Positions 1,462 through 13,724 of a DNA stretch of 14,127 nt are shown one piece after another; position 1 is the stretch's first letter; each line of letters begins with the position of its first letter. Origin of the DNA: Streptomyces bikiniensis (lineage in GTDB: Bacteria > Actinomycetota > Actinomycetes > Streptomycetales > Streptomycetaceae); contig JNWL01000079.1 of the NCBI GenBank assembly GCA_000716465.1, positions 1 to 14,127 of the forward strand. The letters are read 5' to 3'. Below the pieces are notes generated by a model. That model saw only the letters and a program-made list of their open reading frames with translations, searched no databases and was not told where the DNA came from. Made by a program: the position numbers and the translations under genes.

Positions 1462-1869
1462 TCAGGCGTCGGGCAGCAGCCGGACCATGTCGATGCCCGG
1501 TCGTACCTTGGCGATGGCGGCGAAGTCGTCGTCCACGTGCAGCAGGGTCAGCCGGTGTCGCTCGGCCGTGAGCGCGATCAGGACGTCCATCGGCGACGGC
1601 CCGCGGTGATGTCCGATCGCGAGCAGGTCCCGCTGCACGGCGATGACCTCGGGCCAAGGATCCTCCGGGGCCGGGACCCAGGTGAAGGACTGGTTCAGCA
1701 TGGTGGTGAACGGCTCGTGGTCGCGGTCGGAGCGCAGCGCCCGCATGAGTTCCGCCTCGACCGGCGGGCAGAGGGAGACCTGGCCACGTGCCACACGGCT
1801 CGGCCAGGGATCGCCCACCTGCCGACGCAGGATGCGCCACACGGCCGACGTGTCGGCAAGGTAGTTCAC
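1462..1869 (-). CDS. vapC: VapC-type PIN-domain ribonuclease toxin
   Basis: A 135-aa PIN-domain protein, the usual size for a VapC toxin, expected to cleave RNA using Mg2+ or Mn2+. The acidic active-site set is visible: D6 in LADTSAV, E40 in PVEAELMRAL, D95 in SPMDVLIAL and the D113/D115 cluster in HVDDDFAAIA. The GTG start at 1869 overlaps the antitoxin stop by 4 bp (GTGA), so translation is likely coupled. The frame continues upstream through vapB, but PIN homology begins exactly at this GTG. No catalytic residue appears lost, so the toxin is probably active. It converges on the DUF2087 gene. Confidence 0.92.
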   Translation of the reverse strand: MNYLADTSAVWRILRRQVGDPWPSRVARGQVSLCPPVEAELMRALRSDRDHEPFTTMLNQSFTWVPAPEDPWPEVIAVQRDLLAIGHHRGPSPMDVLIALTAERHRLTLLHVDDDFAAIAKVRPGIDMVRLLPDA

Positions 1870-2084
1870 CGGCCGGACCGCTCCTCTTCCTCCAGGAAGT
1901 CGAAGTCGAGGAAGTCCTCGGCGTTCTCCTGGAGCCACCGCAGCGCCCGGGCGCGGTCGTCCGCGCTGATCGACGCCGCTATCGTCAGCGCGCGGTTGAT
2001 GGTGTCCCGCTTGGTCCTGGTGCCGAGCTGTCGCTGCGCGAAGGCGAGTGCCGCTTCGTCGATGTCGATCAGGGTCTTGGACAT
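1866..2084 (-). CDS. vapB: VapB-type ribbon-helix-helix antitoxin
   Basis: A 72-aa antitoxin. The N-terminus is a ribbon-helix-helix DNA-binding fold: a strand at 2-8 (SKTLIDI), then helices through TKRDTINRALTIAAS (24-38). The acidic and aromatic C-terminus (AEDFLDFDFLEEEE, 55-68) is typical of tails that occupy the VapC active site. The ATG at 2084 is preceded by GGAGG (2090-2094) with a 5-nt spacer. The stop overlaps the vapC start. As in other VapBC systems the complex should repress its own promoter; AT-rich direct repeats just upstream are candidate operators. Confidence 0.92.
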   Translation of the reverse strand: MSKTLIDIDEAALAFAQRQLGTRTKRDTINRALTIAASISADDRARALRWLQENAEDFLDFDFLEEEERSGR

Positions 2085-3030: not shown

Positions 3031-5076
3031 TCACTGCGCGGCGCCCTCCTGCTGCTGGGCGTTCCGCAGGGCCTCGCGCGCCGTGTCGCGGTCGGTGGTG
3101 GCCCGGTGGGCCGCGTCCAGCAGCAGGGTGTAGAAGACGCTGTCGCGAGGGGTCTCCCACATGTGGAGGTAGATCAGCATCTGGTTGAGGACGGTGTCGT
3201 ACTCGACGAGGGTCGCGGAGGCGTCCCCGGCCGCCCGCTCCCAGGTGAGCACCGTGTCCCGCTCCGCGTCGCTCAGCTTTCCCGCCCTGTGGTAGTTGGT
3301 CGCGTACTTCTCGAGCTTGCCCGCCCCGCCGCCGTACTCCACCTTCTCCCTCAGGAGGGAGTACTGGTTCTCGTTGAAGAGGTCCGACTCCTTCGCCAGC
3401 GCGTCGGCCAGGGACTTCAGCGTCGCCTTGCGGGCCCTCGCGATCTCCCCCACGGCCTCCGGGGTGGAGGTGTAGGGGGCCAGCAGCATGGCGTCCGTGG
3501 CCGCGTAGGCCCGGTGCGCCGCGACGTGGGTGAGTTCGTGGGCCATGTGCCCGAGGAGGAAGGAGGTTCCCCCGCGCGCCTGGGTGTCCACGTTGAAGGT
3601 GTAGCGCCGGTCGGGTCCCGCGCCGCTCCGGTAGGGCGGGGCCGCCGTCATGCCGAGGGACGAGATCGGCCGGATGAAGTCGACCGCATCCGCCAGCGGC
3701 AGGATCTCCTCCAGCACCCGGCGCGTGACGGCCGGCAGCAGCGGGTCGCCCCGCATCTCCTCCAGCTTTCCGACGAAGGTGCGCATGAGGGAGTCGAACC
3801 CGCCGACGGTGAGCATGCGGGCGGTGGCCTGCGCCTCGCCCGGGATGTTCAGGCGGTTCATGTGGTCGGCGAACGTCGCGTTCCGGCCGCCCGGCCCCAT
3901 GAGCTTGTCCGCGTGGGCCAGCAGCTCCCGGAAGACCCGGGCGACCTCCGCGTCGGAGTCCGCCGTGCCGTCGGTCCGCGCGCGGGGGAGTTCCTTCGGC
4001 ACGGTCTCCAGCAGCCCCAGTTCGGCGGCGGCCTCGCCGCGCAGCTTCTCCACCCCGGCGTACCGCGGCGACGCCTCCCTCCCCTCCATGTACGTCCGGC
4101 ACAGATCGACGAGCCGGGTGAGCGCCGCCAGCTGCGCCGCCAGGTCGCGGCCGAGCGAGTTGTACTCCTCCAGGCCCCGGTCGACCTCCGTGACGGTCGA
4201 CCTGCCGCGGACCTTGCCGGGGACGGACGTCTCCTCCTTGAACTCCTCGGGGGTCATCATCCGTTGGACCGACGGGGACGGGGCGGCGGGGCGCGCCTCC
4301 CGGTGGTCCGGTTCCTGCGGTACCGCCCTGTCCGGTGCCGGACGCGACATCACCCGGGTCGCGTTCGCCTCGGCCTCGCGCTCGTACCGGTCGGAGGGGT
4401 CGCTGATCCGCAGCCCGCCGCCGTCGTCGGTGCCCGCGACGGGTCCCCGGCGCTGCTGGATGACGTGGGTCAGTTCGTGGGCGAGGGTGTGCCGGTCGCC
4501 GCCGCCGTCCCCGATGACGACGTGACTGCCGGACGTGTACGCGCGGGCGCCGACCTCGGCCGCCGACGCCCTCGCGGCGCCGTCGTCGTGGACGCGGACG
4601 TCGGAGAAGTCCGCGCCGAGCCGGGCCTCCATGTCGGCGCGCGTGGCGTCGTCCAGCGGGCGCCCGGGGGTGCGCAGGACGTCGTGGACGGCGGAGCGCT
4701 GTACGGCCGCGGGCTGTTGTACGGCCGTGGACCGCTGCACGGCCGCGGACTGCTGTACGGCCGTGGACCGCTGTACGGCCGCGGACTGCTGCACGGCTGC
4801 GGACCGCTGTACGGCCTCGGACCGCTGTACGGCCTCGGGCCGTTCGGCCCCCGTCGCCCCCTGGTGGCCGCAGCCCGCCCCGTGCCGGTGCTCCTCCCGG
4901 GCCCAGGAGTGGCCGGCTCGGCGGAGCAGTTGGACGACGGCCTCGTTCCCGGCGCTCCCCTGGAGGGCGAGGAGTTCCCGGGCGCGCGCGGTCCCGGCGG
5001 TGTCGGAGGCGGTGGCGCGCGTCGGCGCGCGGCCGGTTCCGGCGGCGGGCTCTCGGGCGTTCTCGTGGGCTCGCAT
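3031..5076 (-). CDS. DUF4157 protein with two HELTH motifs and hexapeptide repeats
   Basis: A 681-aa protein. Residues 34-53 (ELLALQGSAGNEAVVQLLRR) are the N-terminal motif common in this family. A His/Cys-rich patch (HRHGAGCGH, 63-71) follows. Residues 81-128 are eight tandem hexapeptides [EAT]-A-V-Q-[RQ]-[SP]. The DUF4157 domain (about 133-245) has a putative zinc motif HELTHVIQQ (200-208) and EREAEANA (232-239). VQRMM at 270-274 echoes the repeat. A long helical region (275-475) leads to a second motif HELTH (513-517) in a C-terminal domain, ending in predicted helices. DUF4157 proteins are often linked to extracellular contractile injection systems or toxin delivery; no injection-system gene is visible here. 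Start ATG 5076 has GAAGAGG 4 nt upstream. It could be a secreted-complex cargo or a metalloprotease; the substrate is unknown. Confidence 0.9.
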   Translation of the reverse strand: MRAHENAREPAAGTGRAPTRATASDTAGTARARELLALQGSAGNEAVVQLLRRAGHSWAREEHRHGAGCGHQGATGAERPEAVQRSEAVQRSAAVQQSAAVQRSTAVQQSAAVQRSTAVQQPAAVQRSAVHDVLRTPGRPLDDATRADMEARLGADFSDVRVHDDGAARASAAEVGARAYTSGSHVVIGDGGGDRHTLAHELTHVIQQRRGPVAGTDDGGGLRISDPSDRYEREAEANATRVMSRPAPDRAVPQEPDHREARPAAPSPSVQRMMTPEEFKEETSVPGKVRGRSTVTEVDRGLEEYNSLGRDLAAQLAALTRLVDLCRTYMEGREASPRYAGVEKLRGEAAAELGLLETVPKELPRARTDGTADSDAEVARVFRELLAHADKLMGPGGRNATFADHMNRLNIPGEAQATARMLTVGGFDSLMRTFVGKLEEMRGDPLLPAVTRRVLEEILPLADAVDFIRPISSLGMTAAPPYRSGAGPDRRYTFNVDTQARGGTSFLLGHMAHELTHVAAHRAYAATDAMLLAPYTSTPEAVGEIARARKATLKSLADALAKESDLFNENQYSLLREKVEYGGGAGKLEKYATNYHRAGKLSDAERDTVLTWERAAGDASATLVEYDTVLNQMLIYLHMWETPRDSVFYTLLLDAAHRATTDRDTAREALRNAQQQEGAAQ
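4693..4836 (-). repeat. 18-bp tandem repeat coding for AVQRS/AVQQS hexapeptides
   Basis: Eight in-frame 18-bp units (144 bp) inside the DUF4157 gene. They encode EAVQRS, EAVQRS, AAVQQS, AAVQRS, TAVQQS, AAVQRS, TAVQQP and AAVQRS. DNA units share a core seen on the + strand as CTGTACGGCC or CTGCACGGCC. The R/Q alternation suggests a 36-bp higher-order unit in the middle copies, and copy number could vary between strains. Confidence 0.9.
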
Positions 5077-6339: not shown

Positions 6340-6391
6340 ACCCAGGCCGAGGAGCCGTACTCCCGTGCCCCCGTCGCCCGCCCCCTCCCTC

Positions 6392-6545
6392 GTACGCCCA
6401 AGGGGCCGATCCCGTACGCCCACGGGACCGACCTCGTACGCCCAAGGGGCCGACCCCATACGCCCACGGGACCGACCTCGTACGCCCAAGGGGCCGACCC
6501 CATACGCCCACGGGACCGACCCCGTACGCCCAAGAGGCCGACCCC
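6392..6545. repeat. Array of seven 22-bp tandem repeats (44-bp super-period)
   Basis: Seven contiguous units of exactly 22 bp begin GTACGCCC or ATACGCCC; an eighth starts at 6546 and fades into the end of the copper ATPase gene. Two types alternate: type A continues AAGGGGCCGA and type B continues CACGGGACCGA, giving a 44-bp higher-order unit of about 3.5 copies. Type A contains GGGGCCGACCCC, able to form a 4-bp stem. As 22 is not a multiple of 3, frames through it are artefactual. It lies 19 bp beyond the ATPase stop codon. Confidence 0.92.
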
Positions 6546-6563
6546 GTACGCCTCCCCGCCCCC

Positions 6564-8840
6564 TCAGCCCTCCGCCGCCCTGAACCCCCGCAGCCGCAGG
6601 CTGTTGCCGACCACGAAGACCGACGAGAAGGCCATGGCCGCGCCCGCGATCATCGGGTTGAGCAGGCCGGCCGCGGCGAGCGGCAGCGCCGCCACGTTGT
6701 AGGCGAAGGCCCAGAAGAGGTTCGAGCGGATCGTGCCGAGGGTCCGGCGGGAGAGCCGGATCGCGTCGGCCGCCGCCCGCAGGTCCCCCCGTACGAGGGT
6801 CAGGTCGCCGGCCTCGATGGCGGCGTCCGTGCCCGTGCCCATCGCCAGGCCCAGGTCGGCCTGGGCGAGCGCGGCGGCGTCGTTCACGCCGTCGCCGACC
6901 ATGGCGACCGAACGGCCCTCCTCCTGGAGGCTCATGACGACGTCGACCTTGTCCTGCGGCATGACCTCCGCGATCACCTCGTCGATGCCGACCTCGTCGG
7001 CGACCGCCTCCGCGACCGCCCGGTTGTCGCCGGTGAGCAGGATCGGGGTGAGGCCGAGCCCGCGCAGCCGCCGGATCGCCTCGGCGCTGGTGTCCTTGAC
7101 GGCGTCCGCGACCTCCAGGACCGCGCGCGCCTCCCCGTCCCAGGCGACCGTGACGGCGGTCCGCCCCGCCGCCTCGGCCGCGCCCTTCGCCGCCTTGAGG
7201 CCGGCCGGGAGGGTCATCGCCCACTCCTCCAGGAGCTTCTCGCGGCCGACGAGGACCGCGTGGCCCTCGACCACGCCCTGCACGCCGAGGCCGGGGACGT
7301 TCGCGAAGTCCTCGGGCACGGGCAGGGTGCCGACCCGGTCGGCCGCGCCGGTGGCGACCGCCCGGGCGATCGGGTGCTCGGAGGAGTGCTCCAGGGCGCC
7401 CGCGAGCCGCAGCGCGTCCTTCTCGTCCACGTCGTCGGCGGTGTGGACCGCGAGGAGGGTCATCCGGCCGGTGGTGACGGTGCCGGTCTTGTCCAGGACG
7501 ATCGTGTCGACCCGGCGGGTGGTCTCCAGGACCTCGGGGCCCTTGATGAGGATGCCGAGCTGCGCGCCGCGCCCGGTCCCGACCATGAGGGCGGTGGGGG
7601 TGGCCAGCCCCAGGGCGCACGGGCAGGCGATGATCAGGACGGCGACGGCGGCGGTGAACGCGGCGGTGAGGCCCTGCCCGCTGCCGAGCCAGAAGCCGAG
7701 GGTGCCGAGGGCGAGCGCGATGACGACCGGCACGAAGACGGCCGAGATGCGGTCGGCGAGGCGCTGGGCGGCGGCCTTGCCGTTCTGCGCGTCCTCGACC
7801 AGCTTCGCCATCCGGGCGAGCTGGGTGTCGGAGCCGACGCGGGTGGCCTCGACCACGAGCCGGCCGCCGGCGTTCAGGGTGGCGCCGGTGACGGCGTCCC
7901 CGACGCCGACCTCGACCGGGACGGACTCGCCGGTGAGCATGGAGGCGTCCACGGCGGACGAGCCCTCGACCACGGTGCCGTCGGTGGCGATCTTCTCGCC
8001 GGGGCGGACCAGGAAGCGGTCCCCGACCCGGAGCCCGGCGGTCGGTACGGTGACCTCCCGGCCGTCCTTCAGGACGGTGACCTCCTTGGCGCCCAGCCGC
8101 ATCAGGGCCTTGAGGGCGGCGCCCGCCTTCCGCTTGGAGCGGGCCTCGAAGTACCGGCCGGCCAGGATGAAGGCGGTGACGCCCGCGGCGGCCTCCAGGT
8201 AGATGTTCCCGGCGCCGTCGGTGCGGGCGATCGTGAACTCGAAGGGGTGCGTCATGCCGGGCGTGCCGGCGGTGCCGAAGAACAGCGCCCACAGCGACCA
8301 CAGGAACGCGGCACCCGTACCGACCGAGATCAGGGTGTCCATGGTGGCCGCGCCGTGCTTGGCGTTGGTCCAGGCGGCCCTGTGGAAGGGCCAGGCGGCG
8401 TAGACGACGACCGGCGCGGCGAGCGTGAGGCTCAGCCACTGCCAGTACTCGAACTGCAGGGCCGGGACCATGGCCATCGCGATGACGGGGACGGCGAGGA
8501 CGACGGCGGTGACGAGCCGCTGCCGGAGGGGCCGCAGCTCCTCGTCGGCCCGCTCCTCCTCGGCCCGCTCCTCGTCGGCGTCGTGGGCGTCGGCGGCCCC
8601 GTCCCCCGGGGGTTCGGGTTCGGCGGCGGTGTAGCCGGTGGCCTCGACGGTGGCGATGAGGTCGGCGACGCCGACGCCCGCGTCGAAGGTGACCTTCGCC
8701 TTCTCGGTGGCGTAGTTGACGGTGGCCTCGACCCCGTCCATGCGGTTGAGCTTCTTCTCGATGCGGGCCGCGCACGAGGCGCAGGTCATGCCGCCGATGG
8801 CGAGCTCGACCTGAGCCGTGCCGGATGTCGTCGTTGCCAT
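6564..8840 (-). CDS. copA: Copper-translocating P1B-type ATPase
   Basis: A 758-aa integral membrane pump that should export Cu(I) using ATP. In order: one N-terminal heavy-metal-associated domain with GMTCASC (17-23, C20/C23), an acidic linker (72-104), membrane helices, the actuator motif TGES (303-306), the transmembrane metal site CPC (406-408), the phosphorylation motif DKTGT (450-454), the SEHP motif (487-490), GDGVND (649-654), and the TM7 YN (714-715) and TM8 MxxSS (736-740) residues diagnostic of Cu(I) selectivity. All key residues are present. ATG 8840 has GAGGAG 8 nt upstream. It is downstream of the copZ remnant and most likely transcribed from the same CsoR-boxed promoter. Confidence 0.97.
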
Positions 8841-8947: not shown

Positions 8948-9135
8948 TCAGACGCGGCCGGTCAGCTCGTAGCCGCGTCGTCGACGGCCGCGGCGATCGC
9001 GGCGTCGTCGGGCGCGGCGCCGGTGGTCACGGTCACCAGGCCGCCGGCGACGGCCGTACCGCCCGCACCATCGGTGCCGTCCGTGCCGTCCGTGCCGGTC
9101 GAACAGCCGTGGTCGGGGGTGCAGCAGGAGCCCAT
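8948..9135 (-). pseudogene. copZ: copZ copper-chaperone remnant lacking the metal-binding core
   Basis: Starting at ATG 9135, with GGAGGAGG 5 nt upstream (9141-9148), the frame encodes 57 aa ending at 8962. The N-terminus MGSCCTPDHGCSTG resembles streptomycete CopZ leaders, and [20 protein letters not shown] matches the last strand and helix of a heavy-metal-associated domain. The expected TVxGMTCxHC motif and the central roughly 35 residues are missing, replaced by TDG repeats. The usual C-terminus GYELTGRV is present but in another frame (stop at 8948): one missing C after the codon pair GAC GAC explains this. Without the Cys pair it should not carry copper like CopZ, though Cys4, Cys5 and Cys11 remain. 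It could be genuine decay, a reduced peptide, or an assembly error. Confidence 0.7.
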
Positions 9136-9172
9136 GACTTCCTCCTCCGTCTCTGTCGTTCTCTGTCGCGGG

Positions 9173-9189
9173 ATACCCTAGGGGGGTAC
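9173..9189. promoter_or_regulatory. CsoR-like operator box 1
   Basis: ATACCCTAGGGGGGTAC is a 17-bp pseudo-palindrome with TACCC/GGGTA arms, matching the G/C-tract palindromes bound by the copper sensor CsoR in actinobacteria. It lies just downstream of the inferred leftward transcription start, in the 5' leader of the copZ remnant. No csoR gene is in the window. Confidence 0.7.
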
Positions 9190-9204
9190 CTTCCCATGCC
9201 TCCA

Positions 9205-9233
9205 TGTATACCCCCCGCCCGTATCAGGGGCAA
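9205..9233 (-). promoter_or_regulatory. Leftward promoter for copZ remnant and copA
   Basis: On the minus strand TTGCCC (9233-9228) and TATACA (9210-9205) are separated by 17 nt, a good -35/-10 pair. CsoR-like box 2 fills most of the spacer. The inferred start is near 9198, giving a leader of about 60 nt before the ATG at 9135. Confidence 0.65.
9208..9224. promoter_or_regulatory. CsoR-like operator box 2 (imperfect)
   Basis: ATACCCCCCGCCCGTAT keeps the ATAC...GTAT ends and the exact 17-bp length of the other two boxes. Its right half has CCC where GGG is expected, so the palindrome is imperfect. It sits within the leftward promoter spacer. Confidence 0.5.
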
Positions 9234-9246
9234 GCGGATCACGGGT

Positions 9247-9274
9247 TTGATTTAATACCCCCCAGGGGTATGGT
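9247..9274 (+). promoter_or_regulatory. Rightward promoter for the His-rich gene
   Basis: TTGATT (9247-9252) and TATGGT (9269-9274) are separated by 16 nt. CsoR-like box 3 occupies the spacer and overlaps the -10, a layout that would give copper-relieved repression. The next gene starts at 9343. Confidence 0.6.
9255..9271. promoter_or_regulatory. CsoR-like operator box 3 (best match)
   Basis: ATACCCCCCAGGGGTAT is a 17-bp near-perfect palindrome with C-tract and G-tract halves, the clearest CsoR-type site here. It overlaps the rightward promoter between -35 and -10. Confidence 0.8.
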
Positions 9275-9342
9275 GAAGTGTATCGGGCGGTTCCTTGCGT
9301 ACCCGTCCGCGCCACCCACGGACGACCTATGGGAGAGCAGCC

Positions 9343-9561
9343 ATGAACACCGGTGTGAAGATCGCCGCCTTTGCCGCCGTGCTCGCCGCGACCTTCGGGG
9401 CCGCGTACGGGGTCGGTGCGGCCGTCGGCCCCTTCGACGCTCCCGCGAAGGCCCCGGCGGTCGACGGACCCGCGGTCCCCGGGGGCGAGGGGGGCACGGT
9501 CCACGAGGGTGGAGGGCACGCGGGCCACGAGGGTGGAGGGCACGCGGGACACGGAGGCTGA
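9343..9561 (+). CDS. His-rich membrane-anchored protein, probably truncated
   Basis: A 72-aa protein from ATG 9343, with GGGAG (9331-9335) 7 nt upstream. Residues 6-29 are one hydrophobic segment after a Lys, a signal-anchor or membrane helix. The exported tail is Pro/Gly-rich and ends in a His-rich repeat (EGGGHAGH twice, 55-62 and 63-70), coded by two 24-bp tandem units at 9502-9549. Such tails can bind copper or zinc. It is divergent from copZ/copA under CsoR-like box 3, so a role in extracytoplasmic copper binding is likely. I recall longer streptomycete homologues with a large domain after this tail; here a stop follows, and frame-shifted continuation is possible downstream. Confidence 0.7.
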   Translation: MNTGVKIAAFAAVLAATFGAAYGVGAAVGPFDAPAKAPAVDGPAVPGGEGGTVHEGGGHAGHEGGGHAGHGG

Positions 9562-11474: not shown

Positions 11475-13535
11475 TCACGCCTCCCCCAACTGCTCCGGAA
11501 CGGGAGCGGAGTGAACCACCGTCAGGCCCGACACGGCACGCGTCAGCGCCACGTACAGGCGACGCAGGCCCGTCCGCCCGTCGGGTTCGCCGTCGACGAC
11601 CGCCGCCGGCTCGTCCAGGACCACGTAGTCGTACTCCAGACCCTTCGCGAGCGACGCCGGGACCAGGGTCAGACGGGACTCGGCCGTCGTCTCCTCGCCG
11701 GGCGAGAGGTGCGCGAGGCCCGCCTCCGCCAGCGCCTCCGCGAGCGGCGCGATCCGCGCGTCGGCGGCGATCAGACCGATCGAGCCCTCGTGCCCCAGCG
11801 CCTCGACGCAGGCCGCGACCACGGCGGCGTCCAGGTCCTCCGCGCGACTGTGCCGGATCTCCAGCGACCCCGGGTTCTCCCGCACCGACTCCACCGGCGC
11901 GAGCCCCGGCGACATGTGCGGAAGCAGCCGCGAGGCGTACGCGATGACCTCGCGCGGCACGCGGAAGCCGGCCGTCAGCTCCTCGACCACCGCCTCCGGC
12001 TTCCCCAGGTGCCCGAGCGCCTGCGCCCAGCTCTCCGTCGCCCACGGCGTGGTCCCCTGCGCCAGGTCGCCGAGGACGGTGGCCGAACCGGTCGTGCAGC
12101 GCCGCCCCACCGCCCGGTACTGCATGGGGGACAGGTCCTGCGCCTCGTCCAGGACCACGTGCCCGAGCGAGTGCGTCCGCTCCACCAGGTCCTTCGCCTC
12201 GTCCACGAGCACCGCGTCCGCCGCCGACCACTTCGCCGTCCTCACGCTCCGGCCCGGCTTCTCCCACAGCAGCAGCTTCTGCTCGTCCTCCGTCAGCACC
12301 CCCTCGGCGTGCTCCGCCAGGAACTCCGCGTCGCTCAGCAGCCGCAGCACCAGCTTCGCCGGGTCCACCGGCGGCCAGCACTCCTTCACGACCGCCTTCA
12401 CCGCCGCGTTGCGCGCCACCGCGTTCTGCACCCGGTCGTCCGGCGCCTCGCCCGCCTGCTCCATCCGTACGAGCACGGCGTGCGCGATCCGCTGCGGAAG
12501 CGCCTCGCGGGCCGCCCCGTACCGGATGTCCCGGTCCAGCAGCTCCCGCACGATCTCCTCGATCTCGTACGCCGGGACCCGCCAGCGGCGCGAGCCGCGC
12601 ACCACCATCAGGGACTCCTCCGGCAGCCTCACGTGCGAGCGGACCGCCCGCCGCAGCACCTCCGCCATCCGGGCGTCGCCCTTCACGACCGCCGTCGCCG
12701 CCGCGTCCGTCCCGCGCACCTCGACGTGCGCCACGAGATCGTCCACCGTCGCCTGCTTGACCTCCAACTCTCCGAGCGCGGGAAGGACCTGCTCGATGTA
12801 CTGGAGGAAGGAGCGGTTCGGCCCGACGACCAGGGTCCCGGTGCGGGCCAGCCGCTCCCGGTGCGCGTAGAGGAGGTACGCGACGCGGTGCAGGCCCACG
12901 GCCGTCTTGCCGGTCCCGGGCCCTCCCTGCACGCACACCGACCCCGACAGGTCGGACCGGACGATCTCGTCCTGCTCGGGCTGGATCGTCGCCACGATGT
13001 CCCGCATGGGACCCACGCGCGGCCGCTCGATCTCCGCCTGGAGCAGCCGGCTCGTGCGCTCCAGCTCCTCCGGGTCGGACAGGTGCTCGTCCTCGTACGC
13101 CGTGAGCTCGCCGCCCGTGTAGCCGAAGCGGCGCCGCAGCCCCACGTCCTGCGTGTCCTTGCGCGAGGCCCGGTAGAACGGCTGCGACACCGGGGCGCGC
13201 CAGTCGATCACCATCGGATCGCCGTCGGCGTCGTGCACGTGCCGCCGCCCGATGTAGAACCGCTGCCCCTCCTGCGCGGTGTGCAGGTAGTCGAGCCGCC
13301 CGAAGAAGAGCGGTGTCCCGGCCAGGTCGGCCAGCGCCTTGATCCGGTCCTCGATCTGCCGCTCCAGGACGACCGCGTTCACCCAGTTCGCGGTGACGTC
13401 CTTGATGTCGAGCGCCTGCACGTCCTCGCGCATCGCGCGCAGGGCGGCGCGGGAGGCGGCCAGATGGGCGCGCTCGCGCGCGAGCGGATCGTCGGCGGAC
13501 GACGGCTGGTCGACTTCGGGTACGGACACGGACAC
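11475..13535 (-). CDS. helD: HelD-like UvrD/Rep-family helicase
   Basis: A 686-aa superfamily 1 ATPase of the HelD type. The N-terminal helical region (about 15-75) is followed by FYIGRRHVHDADGDPMVIDW (93-112), a HelD hallmark. Walker A is GGPGTGKT (204-211). A long insertion (about 260-435) separates it from Walker B VVLDEAQDLSP (460-470), and motifs GFRVPREVI (523-531), KGLEYDYVVLDEP (631-643) and LYVALTRA (660-667) follow. HelD proteins bind RNA polymerase and free it from nucleic acid; actinobacterial HelR forms can also protect against rifamycins. The GTG at 13535 is chosen: GGAGG (13543-13547) is 7 nt upstream, and the frame's extension to 13682 is low-complexity. I saw no rifampicin-associated inverted repeat upstream. 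HelD versus HelR subtype is undecided. Confidence 0.93.
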   Translation of the reverse strand: MSVSVPEVDQPSSADDPLARERAHLAASRAALRAMREDVQALDIKDVTANWVNAVVLERQIEDRIKALADLAGTPLFFGRLDYLHTAQEGQRFYIGRRHVHDADGDPMVIDWRAPVSQPFYRASRKDTQDVGLRRRFGYTGGELTAYEDEHLSDPEELERTSRLLQAEIERPRVGPMRDIVATIQPEQDEIVRSDLSGSVCVQGGPGTGKTAVGLHRVAYLLYAHRERLARTGTLVVGPNRSFLQYIEQVLPALGELEVKQATVDDLVAHVEVRGTDAAATAVVKGDARMAEVLRRAVRSHVRLPEESLMVVRGSRRWRVPAYEIEEIVRELLDRDIRYGAAREALPQRIAHAVLVRMEQAGEAPDDRVQNAVARNAAVKAVVKECWPPVDPAKLVLRLLSDAEFLAEHAEGVLTEDEQKLLLWEKPGRSVRTAKWSAADAVLVDEAKDLVERTHSLGHVVLDEAQDLSPMQYRAVGRRCTTGSATVLGDLAQGTTPWATESWAQALGHLGKPEAVVEELTAGFRVPREVIAYASRLLPHMSPGLAPVESVRENPGSLEIRHSRAEDLDAAVVAACVEALGHEGSIGLIAADARIAPLAEALAEAGLAHLSPGEETTAESRLTLVPASLAKGLEYDYVVLDEPAAVVDGEPDGRTGLRRLYVALTRAVSGLTVVHSAPVPEQLGEA

Positions 13536-13724
13536 GACGGAGCCTCCGGGGCGGATGCGCGGACACGGCGAAGTGGCCGCCGGTTTCCGACCGGGCGGCG
13601 GCTCTCCACGGGGGAGGCGGGGAAGCTGGCGAGTGTAGACCCTGGGGGCGGGAGGCGGCGAATGGATTCCGCCCGTCTCCATCCCGTAGGGGACGAGGTC
13701 GCTCTCACGTCGGACCCCCGGCCC

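Follow-up and report, generated by a model that had tools for sequence, protein, structure and literature searches.

The closest described systems are the CopZ chaperones of the Streptomyces CsoR regulon. According to the sections of PMC3902906 that deal with them, S. lividans possesses two CsoR-controlled copZA operons, one of them expressed under homeostatic conditions and the other assumed to serve at higher copper, and the same sections describe a CsoR operator of the form TACCC-N5-GGGTA. For S. coelicolor, the relevant part of PMC6414726 reports that overexpression of SCO2731 without SCO2730 led to a moderate gain in germination, from which its authors infer chaperone-free activity. The role expected of CopZ in these operons is to bind Cu(I) and to transfer it to CopA, and it is this role that is predicted to be lost, together with the core of the protein, at the locus described here.

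The window, i.e., the whole stretch of DNA that was analysed, is an entire contig of 14,127 bp (C79) from a 7.39-Mb draft genome assembled in 163 contigs. It contains an intact copA preceded by what is very probably a young copZ pseudogene, the product of ordinary decay in a CsoR-type copZ-copA operon that is tolerated through a paralogue. The features of the locus that are needed to follow the argument are listed below.

6564-8840, minus strand: intact Cu(+) P-type ATPase of the CopA type, which carries an HMA domain (GMTCASC) at its own N-terminus; Pfam matches its ATPase, hydrolase and HMA domains
8948-8974, minus strand: former copZ 3' end (GYELTGRV and stop), out of frame via a 1-bp deletion and overlapping the end of the 57-aa frame
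8962-9135, minus strand: 57-aa open frame, the copZ remnant, comprising the N-terminal Cys tail, a repeat-rich junction and the last strand and helix of HMA; assigned by alignment with relatives, with no HMA match in Pfam
9040-9060, minus strand: approximate deletion junction (TAVA/GGLV), with 117 or 123 nt absent relative to intact relatives
9074-9097, no strand: 9-nt tandem repeat, 2.7 copies, encoding a Thr-Asp-Gly stretch
9174-9188, no strand: CsoR-operator-like TAC-N9-GTA site upstream of copZ, aligned with relatives
9256-9270, no strand: another CsoR-operator-like site, located between copZ and the small divergent gene and present in relatives
9343-9561, plus strand: small, divergently encoded protein rich in His and Gly (72 aa when counted from this ATG), with no family match (Pfam was run on 9295-9561)

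The 57-aa frame starts with MGSCCTPDHGC and ends with DDAATS, and its ATG is preceded by GGAGGAGG, a strong ribosome site; the strong Shine-Dalgarno sequence and the CopZ-like start recognised in a first-pass annotation of this DNA are therefore both in place. The GMxCxxC Cu(I) site, present in 91 of the 93 proteins that we collected, is absent from the frame. A Pfam search at E up to 1 gave no HMA match to it, and even at E up to 10 the HMA profile PF00403 matched neither the 57-aa protein (P0001) nor its S. bikiniensis relative P0002, the value for the intact P0005 being 1e-16. The GYELTGRV segment, which ends at 8948, lies in a different frame from the MGSCC start. The stop codon of the remnant is separated from the copA start by 121 nt, and an intact copZ occupies the identical position in relatives. 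The remnant thus has a CopZ-like position directly upstream of copA, and the GMxCxxC site and the HMA profile match are missing from it. A longer frame of 85 aa (8948-9205) was rejected as a gene: it begins in the operator region, runs in another frame and is Pfam-negative at E up to 1. The window gave no match to Rfam at gathering scores.

What has been lost becomes apparent from the alignment with L018, L019 and L050, all of which encode a complete, GMTCGHC-bearing CopZ in the corresponding slot. These are the three closest of 80 named copA loci, a nonrandom set made up of the best matches of a contig scan, from which the nearest records were possibly left out. The operator region, the gene start and the final strand and helix match, and the core is absent: the missing part comprises the first strand, the MTCGHC loop, the first helix and everything onward up to the last strand, ~39-41 codons in total. 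The loss of the copper-binding core that had been proposed from the sequence is thus confirmed both by the absence of GMTCxxC and by the alignment. The proposed combination of an internal deletion with a 1-bp deletion was correct in kind and too small in size, as the internal deletion had been put at about 35 codons and relatives give 39 or 41. The large loss is in frame, because the MGSCC frame continues into GGLVTV as it does in relatives and because P0002 reads to its end. The second lesion, a 1-bp deletion near the 3' end, is found only in the window's version of the protein; one base is absent there in the alignment, just as the displaced GYELTGRV had led the first-pass annotation to expect. 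The TDG-rich junction that it had pointed out corresponds to the 9-nt tandem repeat, which encodes the stretch adjoining the junction. Two disabling lesions are therefore present in copZ, the loss of 117 or 123 nt and the 1-bp deletion.

Short direct repeats are found around the missing segment in other copZ genes. Of the 30 different intact copZ genes that the loci provided, 28 could be evaluated, with in-frame offsets alone considered. In 11 of the 28, the missing stretch has a repeat of 7-8 nt, (C)GTCGCCG, on either side, and a deletion between its copies, 117 or 123 nt long, would lead to a junction like that of the window; in the other 17 this repeat is shorter or absent. The large deletion plausibly occurred between copies of this repeat.

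In relatives, copZ is preserved at the same place. Every one of the 43 fetched rows (30 distinct loci) with a CopA 86.8-92.5% identical to that of the window has an intact copZ within 900 bp upstream; 41 of these rows had already been included in an earlier set of 126 loci. The full set comprised 145 loci, 137 of them with the copA start in reach, L010 being skipped and 7 having no copA match, and across these 145 loci no row fell between 92.5% CopA identity and the 100% of the own genome. Intact orthologues thus stand at the same locus in relatives, as expected if the remnant is a copZ pseudogene.

A protein search with the 57-aa frame as a query (~5.8 billion proteins) returned 40 sequences and a search with P0002 returned 86, giving 93 distinct proteins overall, of which P0001 and P0002 alone are without the CxxC site. 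P0002 (ACIGW0_32255), a 56-aa hypothetical protein of S. bikiniensis, is 74% identical over 95% to the 57-aa frame. It has in common with the window remnant the missing core, the first 17 residues, which are identical, and the TAVA junction; unlike the remnant, it carries no frameshift and runs in frame to GYEPTGRV, and it has more substitutions at conserved columns. Because P0002 lacks the same core and has no frameshift, the large deletion did not arise as an error in this assembly, and, judging from the two proteins, the large in-frame deletion is probably older than the frameshift. A single deletion shared by the window and S. bikiniensis would be the simpler reading of this comparison, in which P0002 is known as a protein alone.

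The frameshifted version is not confined to the window. Four contigs, the longest of 22,514 bp, are counted as encoding the identical 57-aa protein, and since this length exceeds the 14,127 bp of the window and the own genome holds one copy of P0001, the protein must also occur in at least one further assembly, which may be of the same strain. No near-identical locus was present among the 392 genus genomes searched. Matches to the 57-aa and 56-aa sequences, obtained in 11 of 61 and 29 of 296 genomes (own included), revealed no further short frame in other genomes, the listed open frames that match outside the own genome being 82-496 aa long in the 61-genome set and 79-649 aa long in the 296-genome set. 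Among the proteins from both searches, none other shares the 57-aa frame. Relatives with exactly this frame under purifying selection, which the first-pass annotation had named as evidence that would speak against its proposal, were thus not found: the one relative in which the deletion was seen differs at the C-terminus.

How strongly the retained parts are constrained was judged at 32 of their columns that are at least 95% conserved, using 90 intact proteins (P0037, an 84-aa S. cinereoruber protein that keeps the CxxC site and is missing the segment after the first helix, was set aside). P0002 departs at four of the 32 columns (Ala to Thr, Ala to Pro, Leu to Pro and the last residue), compared with three or more departures in only 2 of the 90 intact proteins, 60 of which have none, 21 one, 7 two, one three and one nine. 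In the window remnant there is one substitution at the conserved columns, to which the frameshift adds 7 departures. The first 13 residues are free of departures in both remnants, as they are in 76 of the 90 intact proteins. This suggests that constraint on the remnants is relaxed, the evidence from so few codons being modest, because the Leu to Pro change of P0002 also occurs in the intact P0009 and another of its departures is the last residue. Since the frame of the window is open over 57 codons, has a strong ribosome site and, frameshift aside, shows a single conserved-column substitution, it is chiefly the two indels that speak for decay in this lineage.

The CopA of the window shares 96% identity with P0094, the CopA of S. 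cinereoruber, and its nearest relatives are those of Streptomyces. Upstream of the remnant, the TACCC-N5-GGGTA form is found twice without mismatches (at 9174 and 9256), where 0.18 sites are expected at up to one mismatch and 5 of 200 shuffles reach two. The genome contains two CsoR-family genes, and by the predicted operator upstream the remnant operon would fit the CsoR regulon. Operators resembling that of copZA1 (up to 4 mismatches) lie ahead of copZ or copA in 12 loci, and there is a weak pointer that the window's pair may correspond to S. lividans copZA1 rather than to copZA2.

The RNA of the spacer between copZ and copA folds better than shuffled sequences in a group of 33 loci that was chosen by sequence pattern and includes some second-type operons (mean z -2.3, with 18 of 33 below -2); L019, L018, L101 and L110 are among the strongly folded ones. 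A hairpin in the spacers of these other loci may determine how much chaperone is made relative to pump. In the window, the spacer ahead of copA has a z of +0.19, or -0.42 with other bounds, and 4 of the 33 other spacers likewise lie above -1. A structured leader ahead of the window's copA was rejected on these values, which show no excess folding. They hint, weakly, at a structured spacer that balances chaperone against pump and may no longer be kept in the window.

Several other elements of the window deserve a mention. A tandem array with a 44-nt unit (6388-6552; 3.8 copies, 95% matches) lies between copA and a gene for an AraC/DJ-1-type regulator, and an 18-nt tandem repeat (4691-4842; 8.4 copies) is situated inside a 703-aa protein with an eCIS core domain. 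The product of 11475-13682 (minus strand) is a UvrD-type helicase akin to the RNA polymerase recycling motors HelR/HelD, scoring far under the curated NCBIfam cut-offs, and 1462-1938 (minus strand) encodes a VapC-type PIN-domain protein, also below the NCBIfam cut-off, with a small antitoxin-like stretch, recognised by eye, seemingly just upstream of it within the frame 1866-2951. The right end of the contig (14073-14127) we take to be an Illumina Nextera adapter with its index, an assembly contaminant; it creates false frames, e.g., one with GSEMCIRD.

The genome may offer a replacement for the lost chaperone. Four HMA matches were found in it, namely the CopA of the window, a CopZ and a CopA on contig C56, and a third CopA on contig C2. 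The CopZ on C56 is intact and is encoded beside the second CopA. A cell in which CopA has no chaperone at all is thereby ruled out, and the suggestion, made in the first-pass annotation, of a copA working without its usual chaperone did not hold up in view of this second pair. The third CopA-type ATPase (G000 C2; L006, 1470-4580) belongs to a long branch of the CopA tree and has no CopZ within 900 bp upstream.

The 80 best-match copA loci include 39 from Streptomyces and Kitasatospora, 18 with a site-bearing CopZ within 900 bp upstream and 21 without it. No CopZ-like match exists in the fetched flanks of 20 of the 39, and the remaining locus of the 21, L025 (Streptomyces sp. Tue6028), has a CopZ in which GIGSAHC replaces GMTCGHC. 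Thus, a lack of a linked CopZ is common for this kind of CopA among the fetched loci of these two genera. Outside them, 33 of the 37 copA loci without a near copZ have a CopZ-like match ~0.8-1.7 kb upstream. The count of 58 of 80 copA genes without copZ within 900 bp is misleading because of these farther matches and was set aside, and the trees with 10 and 11 changes of copZ label were not relied on, since the labels came from the uncorrected 900-bp count.

There are other ways to look at the remnant. It could be a working Cys-rich peptide or a copper-sensing leader, its MGSCC-x5-C motif being made from the CsoR-type promoter and either binding Cu(I) or controlling copA translation. The frame, the start site and the operator-like sites are all kept, as this would require, and copper-responsive upstream frames are known elsewhere, as parts of PMC9426467 and PMC9973294 describe. 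The N-terminal Cys tail is free of departures in both remnants, and the L025 CopZ, whose first site Cys is substituted, still has MSNCCTPDGSC; survival of the tail in the remnants is nevertheless of little weight, because all 93 collected proteins have it. With no excess folding in the spacer before copA, a C-terminus that is truncated in the window and deviates from the conserved residues in S. bikiniensis, and no other protein from both searches with the 57-aa frame, we regard such a peptide as quite improbable, and the idea of the first-pass annotation that a short Cys/Gly peptide is still made has gained no positive support. Retention of the tail accompanies two core losses, one by deletion (the window and S. 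bikiniensis) and one by a lost Cys (L025). That the MxxCC-x5-C tail might be kept after the loss of the CopZ core as a stand-alone copper-binding or copper-sensing micro-peptide, expressed ahead of copA from the CsoR-type promoter, is a speculation to which we give very little credence.

Also quite improbable is an artefact, in which the cell would have an intact copZ from whose GC-rich sequence bases were dropped in the draft assembly. The fragmentation of the draft into 163 contigs and the adapter-like right end from ~14073 speak for it; however, the large deletion also occurs in the protein of another record, that of S. bikiniensis, and the frameshifted protein is found on 4 contigs, at least one of them longer than the window's, although these possibly derive from one strain or read set. 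If the remnant is a pseudogene, the deletions of the window and of S. bikiniensis could still be two independent events in the same place. The (C)GTCGCCG repeat does recur in 11 of the 28 evaluated intact genes, and P0037 is another CopZ with an internal loss, but both remnants have MGSCCTPDHGCSTGTDG and the TAVA junction in common, which indicates close kinship and makes independent origins unlikely.

If the remnant is indeed a decaying copZ, the large deletion would go back to a common ancestor with S. bikiniensis, in which short direct repeats slipped or recombined, and the frameshift would have arisen later. The copA gene would still be transcribed from the same promoter, and its product would receive copper either from the intact CopZ that the second copZ-copA pair encodes or directly via its own N-terminal HMA domain; the loss of copZ would be tolerated because of that redundancy. 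A literature search on copZ pseudogenes gave no title on this case among the matches listed. The locus would then be a natural example of how the chaperone is lost stepwise from a CsoR-type copZ-copA operon, with a likely intermediate, that of S. bikiniensis, present in databases. It suggests that a linked CopZ is a labile part of this CopA branch, and it makes testable the independence of CopA from a dedicated CopZ, or its reliance on that of a paralogue. The general picture of copper export is unchanged.

Among known systems, CutF and related copper-responsive upstream frames (DUF2946) are similar to the remnant in that a short Cys-containing frame likewise precedes copper genes, a likeness drawn from their published description. 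The L025 CopZ, encoded ~390-100 bp before copA, is closer: here too the copper site was lost before a related copA and the Cys tail was kept. It differs in that the loss occurred by substitution (GIGSAHC) in a frame that is full-length. With the CopZs of the Streptomyces CsoR regulon (S. lividans copZA1 and copZA2, S. coelicolor SCO1045 and SCO2730) the remnant shares its position before copA and the TAC-N9-GTA-like sites, as well as the N-terminal tail and the last strand and helix of HMA, as judged from the aligned sequences of the relatives. Unlike these chaperones, the remnant is without the copper-binding loop, the first helix and the neighbouring strands, and its end is out of frame.
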